Shown here: positions 623 through 32,887 of the stretch, piece by piece
How positions within the stretch are numbered: position 1 is the first letter of the stretch
How the letters are laid out: each line of letters begins with the position of its first letter
Source of the DNA: Streptococcus anginosus subsp. whileyi MAS624
GTDB lineage: Bacteria; Bacillota; Bacilli; Lactobacillales; Streptococcaceae
Direction: 5' to 3'
Assembly (NCBI RefSeq): GCF_000478925.1
Contig: NZ_AP013072.1
Span: 846,501 to 910,500, forward strand
Length of the DNA: 64,000 nt
Notes under the pieces: model-generated
Told to the model about the DNA's origin: nothing
The model's database searches: none
Seen by the model: the letters and a program-made list of their open reading frames with translations, nothing else
Made by a program: the position numbers and the translations under genes

Positions 623-3600
623 ATGAAAAAGAAAAGTTTATTTTATTTAGCAAGCACAGCTATTTTAATTGCAGCTAGTTCACATCAGGTTTTTGCTGAT
701 GAACCTGTAAAAACTTCTACGCCACAGCCGACAGTAGAAGTCAATAAACAAGAAGCTCATTCTTCAGTTGAACTCCAAACAAAAGAAGTAACTCAAACTG
801 CTCCAATAAATCAAACAACTTCATCTTCTTCATCTAAAAATGAAGCAACTGCTTCATCAACCGCTTCAACTGAAGCTAAAGTTTCAGAAGAACAAAATGT
901 TGTAAAAGAAAATTCGACAACTACAACTGAGACTAAAAAAGACAATAAGTCAACTTTTTTTGCTACGCAGAATAATCAAACAACAGCTAGAAGTAATCCT
1001 GATGCGCAAGTAAAAAAATCAACCTTTGTAGATGTCAGCAGTCATAATGGGCATATCAGCAAAGAGGATTATCAACATTTAGCTGAAAAAGGGGTAAATG
1101 GGGTTGTTGTCAAATTAACAGAAGGAACGAGCTATAAAAATCCTTATGCGGCTTCTCAAACACGGAATGCACAAGCGGCAGGTATGCAAGTGTCGGCTTA
1201 TGCCTTTTCTCATTATACTAATGAAGCAGAAGCAAGAGCAGAAGCGCGCTATTTTGCAGAGGAAGCAAGGCGATTGAACCTTCCTTCCTCAACTGTTATG
1301 GTAAATGATATTGAAGATTCTGATATGCGTCCAAATATCAATGCAACTACTCAAGCTTGGGCAGATGAAATGCGGCGTATGGGCTTTTCAAATTTGATGT
1401 ACTATACAAGTGCAAGTTGGCTTGATCGAAATAATCTCAGAACGAAAGGACCAATCCAAATAGAGCAATTTGGCTTGGAGAATTTCTGGGTAGCGCAATA
1501 TCCAACTTCAAAATTAAGTGCAGATGATGCGAAAACACTGAAATATAATAGTGAAGCAGGTGCTTGGCAGTTTACTTCGTAAGCTGAACTACTACCTGGT
1601 CGTCATGTATTTGACCAAAGCGTGGATTATACTGGACGATTTACGAATAAGGCAACTCCAAGCAATCGTGCTGCAAATCAGCCAATAAAGGGAAAAATCA
1701 CGGTTCAAAACAATAATCCTAACACAGGAACCTTTGATGTGATTGTGTCAGATGTTTCTGCTCCTTATGGCGTTCGTGAAGTGAAGTTACCGACCTGGTC
1801 TAATGTCAATGGTCAAGATGACATTATTTGGTATACAGCTGCTAAACAGGCTGATGGAACTTATAAAGTAACAGTAAGGGCAGTAGATCACAAATTTTCT
1901 ACAGGACTCTATCACATTCACCTTTATTACATCCAAAATAATGGGAAATTGGTTGGCGTAGGTGGAACAACTACCGAGCTTTCATTTGGACGACCTCAAG
2001 GAAAAGTGACTATTGCTAATAATAATCCTGACACAGGAACTTTTGATGTCCTTATTTCCAATGTTTCTAGTCCTTATGGCGTTCGTGAAGTGAAAGTTCC
2101 AACTTGGTCCAGCATCGGTGGTCAAGATGATATTATCTGGTATACCGCTAAAAAACAAGCTGATGGGACTTATAAGACGACCGTCAAGGTAAGTGATCAC
2201 AAATATTCAACAGGTCTATATAATGTTCATCTGTATTATATCCAAGACAATGGCAAAATCGTTGGAGTAGCAGGAACGCAAGTAATTGTATCTTTAGCAA
2301 GAGCAAAAGGCAATCTTACAATTGCGAATAATAATCCTAACACAGGAACCTTTGATGTGATTGTCTCAGGTGTTTCTAGCCCTTACGGTGTTCGTGAAGT
2401 GAAATTACCGACCTGGTCTAATGTGGATGGTCAGGACGATATTATCTGGTATACCGCTACTAGACAGGCCAATGGGACTTACAAAGCAACTGTCAAAGCG
2501 AGTGACCATAAAAGAAGTACAGGTTTATACCACATTCATCTGTATTATATCCAAAACAATGGTAAACTCGTTGGAGTAGGTGGTACAACGACAGAAGTTT
2601 CAATTGCACGTCCAAAAGGTACATTAACGATTCAAAATAAAGATGCGAATAAAGGAACTTTTGAAGTAATTGTCTCCAATGTTTCTAATCCAGATGGTGT
2701 TCGTGAAGTGAAATTACCGACTTGGTCTAATGTCAATGGTCAGGATGATATTATCTGGTACACTGCTACTAGACAGGCCAATGGAACTTATAAGGCGTTC
2801 ATTAAAGCAAGTGATCATAAGAATTCAACCGGTTTGTACTATATTCATTTGTACTATGTTCAAAACAATGGAACATTGATTGGAGTAGGCGATACATCAA
2901 CCAATGTGACAATTTCTGCGGAAAACCTTAAACCAACTGGAAAAATCACGATTCAAAATAATAATCCTAAAACAGGAACATTTGACGTGGTAGTGTCTAA
3001 TGTTTCCAGTCCTTATGGTGTTCGTGAAGTGAAATTGCCAACTTGGTCTAGTGTAAATGGTCAAGATGACATCATTTGGTATACTGCTGCGAAACGAGCC
3101 GATGGTACCTATAAGATAACTGTGAAAGCGAGTGACCATAAGAGCTCAACCGGCGAATACAATATTCATTTGTATTACATTCAAAACAATGGTAAGCTGG
3201 TTGGAGTAGGTGGTACAACAATACAAGTTTCTAAAACGTCTTATCCGACACCATATTTTTCTCAACGTGATGGTCGTTGGGCAGGACGAACTTATGGAGG
3301 CTACACATTTGCTGCAACAGGTTGCGTGCCAACAACGGTCGCTATGGCAATTTCTGGTATTACAGGACAGACTGTTTTACCAACGACTGTGGCAGATTAT
3401 CTCTATTATTCTACGAATGAATTTAATAAGAGAAGCTATGGTACAACGAGTCATGGTATTGTATTAGCAGCTCGACATTGGGGCTTGAAAACGGATGTTT
3501 TAGGTTCAACCGCAGCTGTGCGAGAAGCGCTTGCTATGGGACACCATGTGCTTGGTGCAGTAGGAACCAGTGTATTTGCAAATTATCCTGTTACGCATGA

Positions 3601-22903: not shown

Positions 22904-25958
<3,055 letters not shown>

Positions 25959-26097
25959 AAGCTATAGATTTAAAAATTTGAAAAAATTAACCAAAAATTA
26001 ACCAAGCAAGTTATATTTTTAGTCAATATTTATAAAATAAAGGGGAACTATATATCAGTTTACACTAGACACAGTATATAGTGCTTACGAGAATATC
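25959..26097. other. Gene-free spacer between IS remnant and the type IIG gene
   Basis: AT-rich DNA with a direct repeat of AAAATTAACCAA near 25982-26003. No coding frame or RNA gene is recognised. It may be residual DNA of an integrative element at the rlmD 3' end. Confidence 0.4.
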
Positions 26098-26132
26098 AAA
26101 AAGGCGACTTCCAAGCGGAAATCGTCTTTTTC
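26098..26132 (-). terminator. Terminator of the type IIG restriction-methylation gene
   Basis: On the minus strand AAAAAGACGA...TCGCCTTTTT form a stem, with an inner TTCC/GGAA pairing and a run of five T. It starts just after the stop codon at 26137. Confidence 0.75.
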
Positions 26133-26136
26133 ATGC

Positions 26137-28428
26137 TTATTTCAAAAATTCATACTCAAATAGGAATGACACAATTTCAGAATTATAATATTCTTTTACC
26201 ATTGTTTTCAATGTATTCAAGTGTCCGTTTAATTCGGGATAGTTATAGATTGTTTTATCATTTTCATCTTTTTCAGATGTGTTAAGCTCATCAATAATCT
26301 GATAAACTGAATACGTCAATTTAGAATTATAATTTTCCGTTTTCTTAGCTTCTGTTAGGACTTTTTCCCATTGTTCAAATAAAGCAGTCTCTTTAGAACC
26401 TTGTTTCAATTTTGCTAAGTTGACTGTTGCTAGCGTATCTCCATTAGAGTTATCCAGTGACAACTCATTGCGGTAGAATCGTCCATCAGAACCATATAAA
26501 CTTCTCATGTGATTTTGCGTTTCAAGTGTTGTGAAGAGCAGAATTTTCAATAAGTCTTGTTCAATCTTGTTACTTGATACAGCTTTATTAAAACGTTCAG
26601 CGCCATCAGCAGATTTCATAATATTAGCACGCTGTGTCCAGTGACGATTATAAGTAATGTAGCGACTGGCGGCAAACATTGGGAGCTTTTCTATGAAATT
26701 GTCTTTTCTTAATGGGAAATACCCTGCACCATTATATAGACTAGCAACTAGTAGAGAAGAAGCCAAGTCAGGATTGTCAAAATTCACTCCAGAAGCTCGC
26801 AAATAGCCAATTAGATTGTTATTTATAATTGTCTGAGAAGTAATTTTATTCGTGCCTACTAATTTTGCTCCATTTAACCCCAATACAAAATCAGATAATT
26901 TATCGTCACTAAATTTCCGTTTGTCGTAATACACATTACTATATTTCGTATAAATACGATTGATGGTTAAATCTTCTTCTTGTAAGATTTCGTTATTGGC
27001 TATATTGAATGCTTCAAGGGTAATATTATCTAATTTTTCATCTACATTTGACCAAAGAATACAAGAAACTAACGCATCAATTTTAGTGTGAAAATGTCTT
27101 CGGTTGAAAGCAAATCCTCTTTCAAACTTTTTATCAATGAGATGAATTTCTTTCCAATATTTGATTGGGCTATAAATAATGTAACTATCAGTAGGCTGAC
27201 GAAGATAATATTTGAAACCACTCCAAATAAAGATATTTCCCATCTCATTTACACCCATTCCCTTGATTTCTTGTTTCATCTGTTTCATTAAATAACTTTG
27301 TTTCCATTGAGATGATGATGAAGTCTTTTTTGCTTTTTGATGCTCTATACTGCGTGTATCTGCGTAGGGTGGGTTTTCATACAAAATAATTGTTACTTTT
27401 GGGTCGTTGATATAGCGTTGAATAATTTCATTATTGATATATTCCTCGCTAAGAGCATCCGCTCCTCGGACTAGCCCCATATTAAAAGTATCTTCTTTTT
27501 CAGTTGGTGGAATGATATGACGGACTTTATCTCCAAGCAATTCCAGCAGAACTTTGTATTCATAATATTCTATAGTTGAAAGAACACAGTGACTTAATTC
27601 CTCGTCGCTCATCAATTTCTCAAGGTTTCCAGTTCCGGCACATCTATCCAAAATAATATAATCATTTCCTTTAGGAACATGTTGAATGGCTTGTCGGACT
27701 AGCTCCAATGACTTTTGAACATAAGGTTCAGGAGTGTAGAAAGCTCCTAAATTTTTCTTTTGCAAAGTATCATTGAGTTTATCCATCAAATATTGAAATT
27801 GAACATTAGTTTCACCGATATAAGGATTGATAAACTCTTTTAGTTTCTCAGGTTTCCGAATTTCACCAATAATTTTAACTTTACCAGTATGGTCACCGAT
27901 AAAATCAGACTTTTTAGCCCCTTTGTTTTCACGATAAAAACGTTCTGCCCAACCAACAATACAGTTTTCGTCAATGTTAATTTTTGTATATTGCTTTGAA
28001 CGTAGTAAAGTAATAAGACGACTTTCGTCTAGTTGACTTTGACCGTATTCTAAAACTTCAAGAGGGGCATCAGAAGAAAAACCAGAGGTTTTTACACTTG
28101 CACCACCAAAATATACTTTTTCGATATGTGTTAAATATTCCTGACTATCAAAAACGTAGATTTTTTCATTCGTTAGCGACACAAGCAGAATGTTTTTGGG
28201 AATTTCTTTTCCTTTGATTCTCCGAGCGGATAGATATTTGATGGCTTGGAATAGAACAGTGTTAATATCATTGATAACAACTTTAAATTCAATCAGATTT
28301 CCATTTACAATACCATCTGTATAATCCGTTAAAATATCATCTGTTTTTAAAGTTTTATCAACAAGAGGGAGATAATCTTGATAAAACTTGAGTTGTCCAT
28401 CAACTTCGTTTGAGAAATGGTTAGGCAT
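26137..28428 (-). CDS. Type IIG-like restriction-modification protein (nuclease plus adenine methyltransferase)
   Basis: From ATG at 28428 (MPNHFSNEVDGQLK; SD GGGGAG) the product is 763 residues. Near the N-terminus TDGIVNGNLIEFKVVI has the D...ExK spacing of a PD-(D/E)XK nuclease. In the middle, ILDRCAGTGNLEK is SAM motif I and YENPPYAD is the NPPY motif of N6-adenine methyltransferases. The long C-terminal part is a likely target-recognition region. One polypeptide with both activities is the type IIG or ISP-like arrangement. Upstream in-frame starts exist (GTG 28491, ATG 28443). A tandem-repeat leader ORF ends on top of the chosen ATG, so expression is probably phase variable. The gene lies in an island between IS982 copies and is not part of the core streptococcal map. 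Confidence 0.8.
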   Translation of the reverse strand: MPNHFSNEVDGQLKFYQDYLPLVDKTLKTDDILTDYTDGIVNGNLIEFKVVINDINTVLFQAIKYLSARRIKGKEIPKNILLVSLTNEKIYVFDSQEYLTHIEKVYFGGASVKTSGFSSDAPLEVLEYGQSQLDESRLITLLRSKQYTKINIDENCIVGWAERFYRENKGAKKSDFIGDHTGKVKIIGEIRKPEKLKEFINPYIGETNVQFQYLMDKLNDTLQKKNLGAFYTPEPYVQKSLELVRQAIQHVPKGNDYIILDRCAGTGNLEKLMSDEELSHCVLSTIEYYEYKVLLELLGDKVRHIIPPTEKEDTFNMGLVRGADALSEEYINNEIIQRYINDPKVTIILYENPPYADTRSIEHQKAKKTSSSSQWKQSYLMKQMKQEIKGMGVNEMGNIFIWSGFKYYLRQPTDSYIIYSPIKYWKEIHLIDKKFERGFAFNRRHFHTKIDALVSCILWSNVDEKLDNITLEAFNIANNEILQEEDLTINRIYTKYSNVYYDKRKFSDDKLSDFVLGLNGAKLVGTNKITSQTIINNNLIGYLRASGVNFDNPDLASSLLVASLYNGAGYFPLRKDNFIEKLPMFAASRYITYNRHWTQRANIMKSADGAERFNKAVSSNKIEQDLLKILLFTTLETQNHMRSLYGSDGRFYRNELSLDNSNGDTLATVNLAKLKQGSKETALFEQWEKVLTEAKKTENYNSKLTYSVYQIIDELNTSEKDENDKTIYNYPELNGHLNTLKTMVKEYYNSEIVSFLFEYEFLK

Positions 28429-28657
28429 ATTGTAGCTCCCCATTTCTCTCTGAAAATAACTCAGAAAACTCAACATAAAAAGCCTTCTCACAAAAATGTG
28501 AAAAAGCCTGTTTTAATGCTTGACAAAAAACACGCCCGATTACATAATCAGTGTGAGCTGTGAGCTGTGAGCTGTGAGCTGTGAGCTGTGAGCTGTGAGC
28601 TGTGAGCTGTGAGCTGTGAGCTGTGAGCTGTGAGCTGTGAGCTGTGATTGCGTTCAT
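28421..28657 (-). CDS. Repeat-containing leader ORF, a candidate phase switch for the type IIG gene
   Basis: A 78-codon frame opens at ATG 28657 behind AAAGGAA and an extended -10 promoter. It encodes MNAI, then four copies of the heptad TAHSSQL made by the 7-bp DNA repeat, then a non-repetitive tail ending ...NGELQYA. Its TAA (28423-28421) overlaps the ATG of the type IIG gene (ATGCCTAA), the arrangement used for coupled re-initiation. In both other frames a stop (TAA or TGA) comes within a few codons after the repeat tract. So the frame reaches the next gene only at certain repeat numbers. The peptide itself has no recognised function. Confidence 0.65.
   Translation of the reverse strand: MNAITAHSSQLTAHSSQLTAHSSQLTAHSSQLTAHTDYVIGRVFCQALKQAFSHFCEKAFYVEFSELFSERNGELQYA
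28552..28642. repeat. 13 perfect tandem copies of a 7-bp repeat (TGTGAGC)
   Basis: Thirteen uninterrupted TGTGAGC units (GCTCACA on the minus strand), 91 bases, then a partial TGTGA. The unit length is not a multiple of three, so gain or loss of one unit by slipped-strand mispairing shifts the frame of the leader ORF. Perfect identity indicates recent or ongoing change. Confidence 0.95.
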
Positions 28658-28689
28658 AATACTTAATTTCCTTTATTTTTGATACTTCT

Positions 28690-28698
28690 ATTATATCA
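28690..28698 (-). promoter_or_regulatory. Extended -10 promoter for leader ORF and type IIG gene
   Basis: The minus strand reads TGATATAATAG, an extended -10 (TGA TATAAT) about 32 bases before the leader ATG. It is divergent from the transposase promoter, with the two cores about 40 bases apart. Confidence 0.6.
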
Positions 28699-28737
28699 AA
28701 ATTTTGGAATCTTGCATAGTAGAAATTTACATTTTTG

Positions 28738-28766
28738 TTGATAAATATTCTTATTTTCGATATAAT
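28738..28766 (+). promoter_or_regulatory. Promoter of the IS1595-TIR operon
   Basis: TTGATA and TATAAT are separated by 17 bases, upstream of an AAGGAG ribosome site and the ATG at 28794. Confidence 0.75.
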
Positions 28767-28793
28767 ATAATCAAGAAGTAAGGAGTACCAGTT

Positions 28794-29711
28794 ATGAAGT
28801 TTGAGTTTAAGTCATTATTTGATTTACAATCTGCTTTTCCAGACGAACAGTCATGTATTGACCATTTAGAAAATATGATTTGGGGCGATGTGATTATCAG
28901 CCCTTTTGATGCTACTTCAAAGGTCTACAAATGCAAAGGTAACAAATACCGCTGTAAAAATACTGGAAAATACTTCAATGTCAAGACTGGTACTCTTTTT
29001 GACAATACTAAAATTGAACTTCGTAAATGGTTTATGGCAATTTGGCTTGTGACTTCTCACAAAAAAGGAATCTCATCTGTGCAATTATCAAAAGATATTG
29101 GTGTTACGCAAAAAACAGCTTGGTTCATGCTGGAACGTATCCGTAAGTGTTTTAGTTCTGAAAGCAACAATAGTCTTGATGATGCTGTGGAAGTTGATGA
29201 AACCTACATAGGTGGTAAAAATAAGAATCGTCATAACTCCAAAAAAGTCAAAAATGCTCAAGGGCGTTCATTGAAAGACAAATCTGCTGTAGTAGGCATG
29301 GTACAACGTCAAGGTAAAGTTAATGCTCATCATGTACCAGATACAAAGACGAAAACATTGACTGAACAGATTGTCAAATACGTAAAGGAAACAGCTCAAC
29401 TTTACTCAGATGAATGGCTGGGTTATAATAAAGTGGCTAAGATGTATAATCATGACTTTGTTAATCATAGAACTAGCGAGTATGTGCAGGGTGATGTTTA
29501 TACCAACACGATTGAAGGCTTTTGGGCTGGATTGAAACATGGAGTATTAGGAATTTACCATTCGTGGTCTAAGAAATATCTTCAAGACTATGTAGATGAA
29601 TTTGTTTTTCGTTATAATACTCGTGACTATTCGGATAGTGAGCGTTTTAATCTCCTGATTTCAAATGCCTGTGTCCGAACTAAATACAGGGAGCTGATTT
29701 ATGGCTACTAA
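28794..29711 (+). CDS. IS1595-family (ISXO2-like) transposase
   Basis: A 305-residue transposase. YKCKGNKYRCKNTGKYFNVKTGTLF is recognisable as the N-terminal ribbon, although most zinc-ligand cysteines of the classical CPxCG form are absent. It is followed by a helix-turn-helix (GISSVQLSKDIGVTQKTAWFMLERIR) and a DDE/N catalytic domain: VEVDETYIGGKNKNRH (first Asp), YSDEWLGYN (second Asp) and NTIEGFWAGLK (Glu). All catalytic positions are present, so it may be active. I see no clear terminal inverted repeats at either side. It has its own promoter, and its stop overlaps the start of the next ORF by 11 bases, so it is the first gene of a four-gene operon rather than a lone insertion sequence. 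Confidence 0.85.
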   Translation: MKFEFKSLFDLQSAFPDEQSCIDHLENMIWGDVIISPFDATSKVYKCKGNKYRCKNTGKYFNVKTGTLFDNTKIELRKWFMAIWLVTSHKKGISSVQLSKDIGVTQKTAWFMLERIRKCFSSESNNSLDDAVEVDETYIGGKNKNRHNSKKVKNAQGRSLKDKSAVVGMVQRQGKVNAHHVPDTKTKTLTEQIVKYVKETAQLYSDEWLGYNKVAKMYNHDFVNHRTSEYVQGDVYTNTIEGFWAGLKHGVLGIYHSWSKKYLQDYVDEFVFRYNTRDYSDSERFNLLISNACVRTKYRELIYGY

Positions 29712-30158: not shown

Positions 30159-30461
30159 ATGACAACATGGTATGATTACATGGTGAGAGCTAGTGAACAT
30201 GCTGGAAGTGACGGTGATTCGTGGTTTCGCTATCTTTATAAGGTCATTAAAGATGAGGAGACTAAACTAACTACTGATGATGTAGAGCAATTGTTGAAAA
30301 ATCCTACCTTAACACCTTTCCAAAAAATAACCCTTCAAGATGCTTTAACAGAAGGTACACACACAAGAGAACACGTTTTGCAGGCGAACCGTAAAAGTCA
30401 GCCAAAAGATATTTTGAAACTCTTTAGAGAGGGTAACTATGGATACGAAAGTTTTATTTGA
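30159..30461 (+). CDS. Unknown 100-residue protein in the IS1595-TIR operon
   Basis: Family not recognised. A small acidic helical protein (MTTWYDYMVRASEHAG...) with no signal peptide. AGGGGG lies just upstream of its ATG. Its last 23 bases overlap the start of the TIR-domain gene, again showing tight coupling. Confidence 0.6.
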   Translation: MTTWYDYMVRASEHAGSDGDSWFRYLYKVIKDEETKLTTDDVEQLLKNPTLTPFQKITLQDALTEGTHTREHVLQANRKSQPKDILKLFREGNYGYESFI

Positions 30462-31851
30462 GGCTCTCAATACAGAATTAGCTAAGGAAAATATTGACCT
30501 ATTTAAAAACATGGTACAGATTACTTGCTTTGATAAAGAAACATACGATGAGTTATCAGAAAAATATTCAAATAAGAACTATCAGTTGAATTTAAAAGGC
30601 TTTGATAAAAAATTTTCGGATAATATTCAAGTCGTTTATAAAGAAGCTACAGGGACAGAATTTACATATAGCAAAGATGGTCAAGAAAAAACAAAGGTTG
30701 GTAAGATAACTGGATGGATTGGTATACACTCTACTATAAATTCGTCTGAAGCAACGGAGTTAAATGATACTAATTTCAAGAAAAATAAGTTATATAATCC
30801 TTTGAGTCTTAGAATTTATGTTAGAAATAAATTAGCTATCTCTAATTTTTTGCCAGTAATTAATAATACGCAAGCTTTTGTAAACTATATTGAAGGTGAA
30901 ATCGGTTATGACATTCTTGATGATAACAACTTTAAAGATATTGCAACGACTAGTAGACAAAATATGGATGAAAATGATCCTCGAGTAGTGGATTTAGCAG
31001 AAAAAATAAAACAAGAAGTATCAAGTTTAATTCGTACAAGATTAGAAGTTAGAAATAAAATGAATAATGAGATTCAATCTTTACGAACAAAATCTGAAAA
31101 AATTGCTAAAGAATCGACTTCTAAAAATATTGATAAAATATTTGATGATTTTAAGTCTCAAAAGGATAGAAATAGCTTTAGTACCTATGAAATGGATCAG
31201 CTAAATCTTAATGTAAAAAATAGGGTTGTACAACAACTCAAAGGAGAAAATTTTAAAAACGAGTATACTATTTTCTTTTCCCATTCACGAAGAAATAAGA
31301 ATGTATTAGACTTTTTCTATTATTTATTAAAAAAGATTGGTGTTACTTCAGACGAGATTTTCTATACAAGTAAAGAGGATGCACCTCAAATTGATATTAA
31401 GCAAAACTTAGGTGAAATTTCTAAAGAAAATATTGTCAATAAAAATACATTATTATTCTTTTATGTTACGAAGGATTTTAAAGACTCAGATTATTGTATG
31501 TTTGAAGGAGGTGCTGCTTGGGCAACGCGAGGTGCAGAAGATTATCTAATCAATTTTGATGAATTTAGTCTGATTCCTGATTATCTTAATCAAAAAGGTG
31601 AATTTCTATAAAAACTTACTCAAAATTCTGATTTGTCTAAAGGAGATTTTTATAATCAGTTGATAAATACACTAAATAAGTTAATTGAGCATATTAATAT
31701 TGGACGAAAAATGAAAGCTGCTGAGGAAGTACCGTTATTTAATAACATTGAATTTCCTGACAAAGTGGAATTAAGCCAAGGAAAAACTCCGGAGCTTAAT
31801 AAAGATATTGAAAACTATTGGAATACTTATATTTTAGAAAATAATGAGTAA
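30439..31851 (+). pseudogene. TIR-domain protein, interrupted by an in-frame stop near the C-terminus
   Basis: The first 390 codons run from ATG at 30439 (SD GAGGGT). The C-terminal third is a TIR domain: NEYTIFFSHSRRNKNVLDFF, DEIFYTSKEDAPQIDI, and SDYCMFEGGAAWA with the Glu (about residue 356) in the place of the catalytic NADase Glu. The N-terminal part has GKITGWIGIHSTIN and DIATTSRQNMDENDPRV, reminiscent of the region after the ATPase fold in MORC/Hsp90-like (GHKL) proteins, but no ATP-binding motifs precede it, so it may be shortened. A coiled region lies at about 190-230. TAA at 31609-31611 stops the frame; the same frame continues at once for 80 codons (KLTQNSDLSKGDFYNQLINTL...), the expected tail. 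TIR proteins of this sort usually act in anti-phage NAD depletion; that is inference here. Confidence 0.65.
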
Positions 31852-31921: not shown

Positions 31922-32887
31922 ACCCATGGTGCTAGTTCATTTCAAAATAGCGTAAATTATGAGCCAGAATAATTTGTTCAATTCGTAACTGTAGTCCGGC
32001 TAGCCCTCTAGCTAATGTATGTTCGATGTCAAAGAGACGACACAGTTCAGAAAAACGAGTTTCAATCGTTCGTCTCATGGCCATTACTTTCCAATTGTTA
32101 TGTTCTTCGGCTCCTGTCATGTTTTGTCGAAATGGTATCCATAGATGGTCACCTTCCTGTTTTAAGTCCTTTTTGAGTTCACCGCTTAAGTAGCCAAGAT
32201 TACCTAGAATAACCGATTGCTTACATCCCTCTAATAGCTCATAAACCACCTTGATATCGTAGACAGAGGCTGGTGTGACAACACAGTTCAGAATACAACC
32301 CGATAAGGTCACTAGCATATGAACCTTGAAACCATAGAACCAAAGATGTTTAGAGACGTTATAGCCAATATCGGCTAATCCTTTAAAAATGGCAACTCTT
32401 TGATTGCGAACTGGTTGGCAAAGTGGTAAGGAAAAACTATCTATAATCGCTATTTCATCAGGCGAAATCAAGTCGCTCATAGCTTTTCGGATTAATTGGA
32501 CTAGCCAAATCATTCGTCTAGACCGACGATTGAAACGACTTCTTTCTAGTAACTGACCACAAGGAAAGAGGTGTCAGATGGTGTAGAAATGGCGTTGTGA
32601 CGTTATGCCTAGTTCAGCTTGTAACAAAAGCAAGACAAGAAGCGCTTCATCTGAAACTTTGCCTAAGCCAACATTACGCCGATGTTTAAAGGAATCTGGG
32701 CAATAAGTTTTATAAAAGTAATGACAAATTTGTGATAATTGGCGTAAATTCCATTCATTGTAAATGATGAGATTTAGCAGTATACTGTAAGTGGCTCATT
32801 TGGACTAACCGCCTGTATGTTTCGTCACTTACAGTATAGTCCATTTGGGCTTTTTATTGTATGTTGAAATTAACTAGCACAACGGGT
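31922..32887 (-). mobile_element. IS982-family element, near full length but degenerate
   Basis: Terminal repeats ACCCATGGTGCTAGTT (31922-31937) and AACTAGCACAACGGGT (32872-32887) match in 14 of 16 positions. The minus-strand transposase starts at 32799 but a 4-base duplication (CCATTCATTG against CCATTG in copy 1) shifts the frame, and a TGA replaces the TGC of copy 1 in the ...HFYTI motif. The C-terminal 193 codons (32513-31932) retain an IS982-type DDE domain (AIIDSFSLPLC..., NLGYLSGEL, MRRTIETRFSEL). No target-site duplication is evident beside the ends. It lies in the same orientation as the remnant at 25640-25958, so the two bracket the island. Confidence 0.85.

Follow-up and report, generated by a model that had tools for sequence, protein, structure and literature searches.

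A repeat-bearing leader ORF as a probable phase-variable attenuator of DNA methyltransferase genes in Streptococcus

How could a tandem repeat switch a DNA methyltransferase gene when it lies in a separate upstream reading frame that ends where the gene begins? The question is raised by a leader in Streptococcus anginosus subsp. whileyi MAS624, within a stretch of 64,000 nucleotides that was analyzed as a whole and is called the window here. A sequence-only reading of this stretch had proposed a translational phase switch acting by coupled re-initiation on a type IIG restriction-methylation gene. We followed up this proposal by structural analysis of the leader, by comparison across Streptococcus genomes and by characterization of the genes behind the leader, which are referred to as payloads.

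Anatomy of the leader and of the gene behind it

The leader ORF (28421..28657, minus strand, as are all features of the switch) starts at ATG 28657 and comprises 78 codons (78 aa) in its present, open frame. A ribosome-binding site, AAAGGAAA (28667..28674), precedes it, and further upstream lies the extended -10 element of the leader transcript, TGATATAAT (28690..28698). The promoter claimed earlier is thus present as an extended -10 type, whereas its -35 box is poor by eye. Thirteen perfect GCTCACA units (28552..28642) begin 15 nt past the first base of the leader ATG, and TRF describes the tract with a period of 7, 13.7 copies and 100% matches. Directly 3' of the tract lies CTGATTATGTAATC, and both closed-frame stops fall within about four codons of the repeats: a TGA (28548..28550) closes one of the two OFF frames and a TAA (28540..28542) closes the other. 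The present 13 units read the open frame, which continues to TAA 28423-28421 inside the payload start ATGCCTAAC (payload ATG 28428). Since 7 is not a multiple of three, each unit gained or lost changes which of these three outcomes applies. The repeat count, the terminal TAA overlapping the next ATG and the stop within five codons in both other frames were all described correctly in the sequence-only reading. Fusion of the leader to the enzyme by slippage is ruled out, because the frame of the enzyme carries a TAA (28542-28540) between the tract and its start. The methyltransferase gene has a ribosome-binding site of its own, GGGGAG (28436..28441; anti-SD pairing -8.9 kcal/mol), and no known RNA family was found in 28300-28850.

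The gene itself (26137..28428, minus strand) encodes 763 aa. The segments GAFYTP (228-233), DRCAGTG (261-267) and NPPY (352-355), which we take to be adenine methyltransferase motifs, are invariant in nine relatives, as is the N-terminal TDG...ExK (37-49), a D..ExK motif that is presumably nuclease-like. Relatives encoded on two viral contigs align with residues 205-763 only; the one inspected has 532 aa and follows a gene judged by eye to be a terminase. Profile comparison joined motifs X and I to the N6_Mtase group in a weak match (probability 52%), and the structure model, built from 5 sequences, was too poor to use (mean pLDDT 37.5). The earlier designation as type IIG is consistent with methyltransferase and nuclease-like motifs in one chain and with phage relatives confined to residues 205-763; Pfam, NCBIfam, PADLOC and PDB sequences yielded no supporting match. 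On the strength of the motifs and the viral relatives, the enzyme is probably a methyltransferase with an added N-terminal nuclease domain, and so of type IIG. The enzyme of locus L086 (G007) differs from that of the window mainly in alignment columns 400-620, and its target-recognition part may have been exchanged.

Recurrence of the leader and its reading frames

The 101 nt after the tract were used as a DNA query against 284 Streptococcus genomes, one per species. The query matched 45 places in 40 genomes; after L079 and L080 had been dropped as unrelated sequence, 43 loci with related leaders were kept in 38 of the 284 genomes. A second search with the divergent leader L075 matched 38/284 genomes, five weak places (E about 4e-4 to 7e-4) being among its matches. 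Across the order, 12 of 395 genomes were matched, ten of them belonging to the genus Streptococcus and the other two giving short matches. A pattern scan of named genomes returned 23 stretches, all titled Streptococcus, with S. cristatus, S. oralis, S. infantis, S. suis, S. gordonii, S. gallolyticus, S. australis and S. sciuri among the species. No match to the leader was found in phages or plasmids, and its pattern did not occur in viral contigs. The promoter element recurs as well, TGNTATAAT being found at the matching position, no more than 60 nt from the leader ATG, in 27 of 29 loci.

A tandem tract is still present at 39 of the 43 loci, with units of 5, 7 or 8 nt and never a multiple of three. 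Units of 7 nt occur at 33 loci (GCTCACA; GTTCACA at L067), 8-nt units at three (L052, L066, L076) and 5-nt units at three (L073, L075, L078). Altogether six different repeat units, all non-triplet, occupy the equivalent place, and their number ranges from one to 23. Tandem copies are gone at L069, L072, L074 and L077, and two copies are present at L055 and L071. At 10 of the 43 loci the contig starts inside the tract, so that the unit counts there are lower bounds; the tract may explain the assembly breaks at these loci.

All three phases are populated among the 29 loci with a recognisable leader start: 11 leaders are in the open frame (a set that includes L072, where the hairpin described below is broken), 12 end at the first OFF stop and 6 at the second. 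Of the 34 loci at which a payload start could be defined, all but L072 have their open-frame stop at -4 to +11 nt relative to it (33 loci; -4 to +5 in 31), a count that is somewhat favoured because the payload starts were picked by the analyst among in-frame candidates. Across 26 distinct tails between hairpin and payload, the open frame contains a single stop, which is the L062 leader's own, against 19 and 36 in the other frames. The non-triplet units, the 11 open against 18 closed leaders and this distribution of tail stops lend good support to the earlier claim of a phase switch in a separate upstream cistron.

Tract length also differs between loci that are otherwise nearly identical, as judged between different genomes rather than clones. 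L056 and L067 share 99.87% identity over 2360 nt behind the leader; L056 carries 20 GCTCACA units, L067 one GCTCACA followed by six GTTCAC(A) units. The C-to-T change is thus found in nearly all units of L067, so the tract appears to have re-expanded from a single changed unit. Identity behind the leader is 98.7-99.6% among the window, L085 and L044, which have 13, 10 and 10 units, respectively, and L045 contains a shortened unit within its tract. We infer that the tract would undergo slippage in culture.

An unstable array that sits in the leader without influence on the gene would be compatible with the collapsed tracts at L055, L069, L071, L072, L074 and L077 and with the broken genes behind several leaders. 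We nevertheless consider neutral repeats very improbable, given six non-triplet units at an equivalent place and the joint conservation of OFF stops, open frame and hairpin. The peptide itself might instead be what acts, for example as a regulator whose length is varied by the repeats, and the post-tract peptide is indeed alike across loci (DYVIGRVFCQALKQAFSHFC and variants). Its tail, however, varies from one payload class to the next without loss of the open frame or the stop-start overlap, and the conserved letters also encode the OFF stops and the hairpin, which leaves an acting peptide with an equally slight chance of being correct.

A hairpin between the tract and the gene

Between the repeat tract and the methyltransferase gene lies a terminator-like hairpin (28480..28509, minus strand) that the sequence-only reading had overlooked. 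It consists of 13 pairs and a TTTT loop, is followed by a short T-run and, judged by its fold and by comparison, is the proposed attenuator. Seven terminator-like sites were detected on both strands of 25500-29000 (shuffle mean 1.6), and 28509-28480 has the most pairs. The fold of the surrounding 80-nt stretch is more stable than that of 1000 out of 1000 dinucleotide shuffles, and that of a 50-nt stretch is more stable than 999 out of 1000. Of the 43 loci examined, 41 retain a hairpin, with energies of -11 to -25 kcal/mol; it is absent at L072, where the tract is lost too, and at L074, and at L076 the equivalent position is taken by a hairpin of unrelated sequence. The T-run on its 3' side is variable, being short and poor at, for example, L052, L054, L066 and L077. 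Pairing and covariation were counted over 27 distinct rows, after prior exclusion of L072 and L074, which lack the hairpin, and of L076, whose hairpin differs in sequence. In this alignment 98% of the cells are paired, and slid structures drop to 50-73%. The covariation score was matched by 1 of 500 shuffles, and three pairs are altered in both partners, a number also attained by 25 of 500 shuffles; since the rows are related, the covariation is support rather than proof.

With respect to the reading frames, the hairpin begins 38 nt after TGA 28550-28548 and 30 nt after TAA 28542-28540, and the ON stop lies beyond it. We consider it probable that the leader attenuates transcription of the DNA methyltransferase gene in a phase-variable manner gated by translation, and that it is one copy of a recurring Streptococcus module. 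Slippage would alter the number of units and hence the reading frame past the tract. In the ON state, as with the present 13 units, ribosomes would traverse the hairpin up to the stop that overlaps the payload start, the hairpin would be unable to form, and transcription would continue into the methyltransferase gene. As a second layer, the arriving ribosomes may also help to start this gene through stop-start coupling. In the OFF states ribosomes would leave at the TGA or the TAA, 30-38 nt ahead of the hairpin, which would then form and end most transcripts. Expression, and with it DNA methylation, would be expected to change between the two states.

Several loci and features argue against an attenuator. 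At L069 the tract has gone and the leader is locked in a closed frame, with the hairpin still present, yet the 773-aa gene there is intact. L058 and L059 combine long tracts with the lack of both a recognisable leader start and an intact gene downstream. The gene of L047 is truncated, its leader being in the open frame, and the T-runs are short.

The coupled re-initiation proposed by the earlier reading would explain the same frames differently: the frame would decide whether ribosomes arrive and re-initiate at the stop-start overlap, and the hairpin would not terminate transcription. The overlap at 33 of 34 loci argues for some coupling and, being conserved, can also be read as coupling without attenuation. 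At L056, L057 and L067 the payload ribosome-binding site is buried in local structure (unpaired probability 0.00), strong local structure being found at this site in L053/L088 as well, and by eye the 3' arm of the hairpin contains the ribosome-binding site at L076 and likewise at L129, a GCAGA-repeat locus considered below. Pure coupling would, however, leave a hairpin kept at 41/43 loci without a role. The payload ribosome-binding sites, moreover, pair well with the anti-SD (-8.9 to -16.6 kcal/mol), and their occlusion does not exceed that found at the sites of 15 control genes of the window (P = 0.33; 27 leader values, identical rows being counted once), which argues against coupling alone. 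A hidden payload ribosome-binding site as the general switch is not supported by the same comparison, in which the leaders do not differ from the 15 control genes. Coupling alone therefore appears unlikely, although more credible than either neutral repeats or an acting peptide; of the earlier proposal, the stop-start overlap stands, and coupled re-initiation is probably only one part of the mechanism in view of the conserved hairpin, the good ribosome-binding sites and the closest precedent.

This precedent is the S. gallolyticus pil1/pil3 system, in which non-triplet GCAGA repeats lie in a separate leader-peptide gene of pilus genes (PMC3894217). The OFF peptide of pil1 ends 39 or 49 nt before a terminator hairpin, and at least 28 nt before it in other isolates; in the ON state the peptide reaches the terminator and expression is high, and transcription attenuation was demonstrated with mutants (PMC3894217). 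As in pil1, the window has a non-triplet tandem repeat within a short leader ORF with its own start, and its OFF frames end ahead of the hairpin (38 and 30 nt) and the ON frame beyond it. Unlike pil1, its leader has other units (GCTCACA instead of GCAGA) and another sequence and precedes methyltransferase rather than pilus genes; furthermore, a single leader family precedes methyltransferases of several kinds, and the open frame extends into the start of the gene. A weak terminator-like hairpin in a streptococcal restriction locus is also known from the pneumococcal tvr locus, where 19 paired bases and five U form a working attenuator whose deletion raised tvrR transcription more than 40-fold (PMC6265443). 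The tvr attenuator differs from the one proposed here in that it controls a recombinase gene and is described without a repeat-gated leader peptide. The match to the pil1 geometry and the size of the tvr hairpin effect led us to rank attenuation first and coupling second.

The 101-nt DNA search gave no support for common descent with the GCAGA leaders, as none of its 45 places is a listed GCAGA locus; a remote kinship may still exist. At L129 a leader with eight GCAGA units is followed by a strong hairpin whose 3' arm ends at a TAATG overlap, and the gene behind it resembles by eye the type III Mod gene of L076; the anatomy is alike, the repeat and the sequence are other. At L125 GCAGA repeats lie close to the beginning of a reading frame that looks, by eye, like a glycosyltransferase, making it a candidate phase-variable gene.

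In the phase-variable type IIG enzyme of Campylobacter jejuni, the repeat tract reportedly lies within the gene. A phase-variable restriction-modification enzyme of type IIG has been described in that species (PMC4889913), and the window payload resembles it in being a probable type IIG enzyme for which phase variation is proposed. In ModS of S. suis, non-triplet repeats switch a DNA methyltransferase on and off at random, and repeats and enzyme form one continuous ORF (PMC6265453). The window shares with ModS the non-triplet repeats before a Streptococcus DNA methyltransferase and the random switching proposed here; in contrast to ModS, its tract belongs to another cistron, and the enzyme frame is stopped after the tract by TAA 28542-28540. 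Searches for repeats within an enzyme's own frame would miss phase-variable methyltransferases of this class.

Payload exchange and genomic surroundings

The main proteins of 36 loci fall into four methyltransferase groups without mutual BLAST similarity, which were assigned by family scans of group representatives. The group of the window comprises 15 loci plus a broken copy at L074 and has no family match. An EcoRI-type methylase group (PF13651) is found at 6 loci, with an HNH endonuclease domain in the next gene at L066; an N6_Mtase group (PF02384) at 11 loci, some with Methylase_S in the same or the next gene; and a type III Mod group (PF01555 and PF12564) with an adjoining Res gene at 4 loci. 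L075 and L076 lie outside these groups and encode further type III Mod genes with PF01555, that of L075 also having PF18273 and a reading frame broken near the start. Gene remnants or no identified gene lie behind the leaders of L058, L059, L071 and L077. All identifiable payloads are DNA methyltransferases, several of them broken (including L047, L055, L074 and L087).

Leaders and payloads do not vary together. L049 and L065 have 96% of a 107-nt leader region in common and unrelated payloads, whereas L064 and L065 have payloads that are 99.6% identical and leader regions that are 82% identical. Farther downstream, L048, L060, L063 and L064 share sequence at 90-95% behind payloads of EcoRI type (L048), type III (L060 and L063) and N6_Mtase type (L064), and at L064 the common part starts within the Res gene. 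The simplest account would be that homologous exchange replaced payloads between flanks common to the loci, including the leader. We lean towards the view that a repeat-gated attenuator leader serves streptococci as a dedicated and exchangeable module for phase variation. It would occupy more than one chromosomal site and precede four or more unrelated kinds of DNA methyltransferase, with restriction-modification genes swapped beneath a constant leader. Under such an arrangement a newly acquired system would be phase-variable at once.

Repeat-gated attenuation as such is already known from experiments on S. gallolyticus pil1 (PMC3894217), and what appears to be new is that restriction-modification genes share a conserved leader module under which payloads are exchanged. 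No account of this leader was found in the open-licence literature, taken without supplementary files, so that an earlier description is possible; the accessible text of PMC6265453, PMC6265443, PMC13343189, PMC3711429 and PMC12211801 does not describe it. In the searchable text of the open-licence literature, the repeat and peptide strings, and GCTCACA together with Streptococcus, gave only matches that were unrelated (a human gene) or from B. subtilis. If the proposal is true, 38 of 284 Streptococcus species genomes contain, at a minimum, the leader of a methyltransferase whose switching depends, or formerly depended, on a separate cistron. This would affect phage defence, DNA uptake and methylation-dependent regulation. 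The switch would then look like a separate part into which restriction genes plug, which would make the evolution of phase variability testable.

An IS1595-family transposase gene (28794..29711, plus strand) lies divergent from the leader and is not part of the switch. Upstream of the leader, 12 other loci, whose payloads differ, share with the window a block containing the IS1595-type transposase gene (75-98% identity, 0.7 to 1.8 kb), and the block that the window shares with 7 loci ends about 1843 nt before the leader ATG. Past this boundary the other loci still resemble each other and the window is the odd one out. A transposon of IS1595 type carrying leader and enzyme as passengers is not supported, as an inverted copy of the block end (24 nt, up to 6 mismatches) was absent downstream at all 43 loci.

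The gene at 30439-31611 appears to be a chimera: the opening ~20 codons match those at the beginning of a 182-aa gene in the corresponding place of L158, and the rest gives an SpbK/ThsB-like TIR match (PADLOC) and a weak BbrUII-like restriction match (NCBIfam, far below the cut-off). A fragment of an IS982-type transposase (193 aa) lies at 31932-32513, and a tandem array with a 309-nt unit, 4.9 copies and 74% matches occupies 1691-3221.
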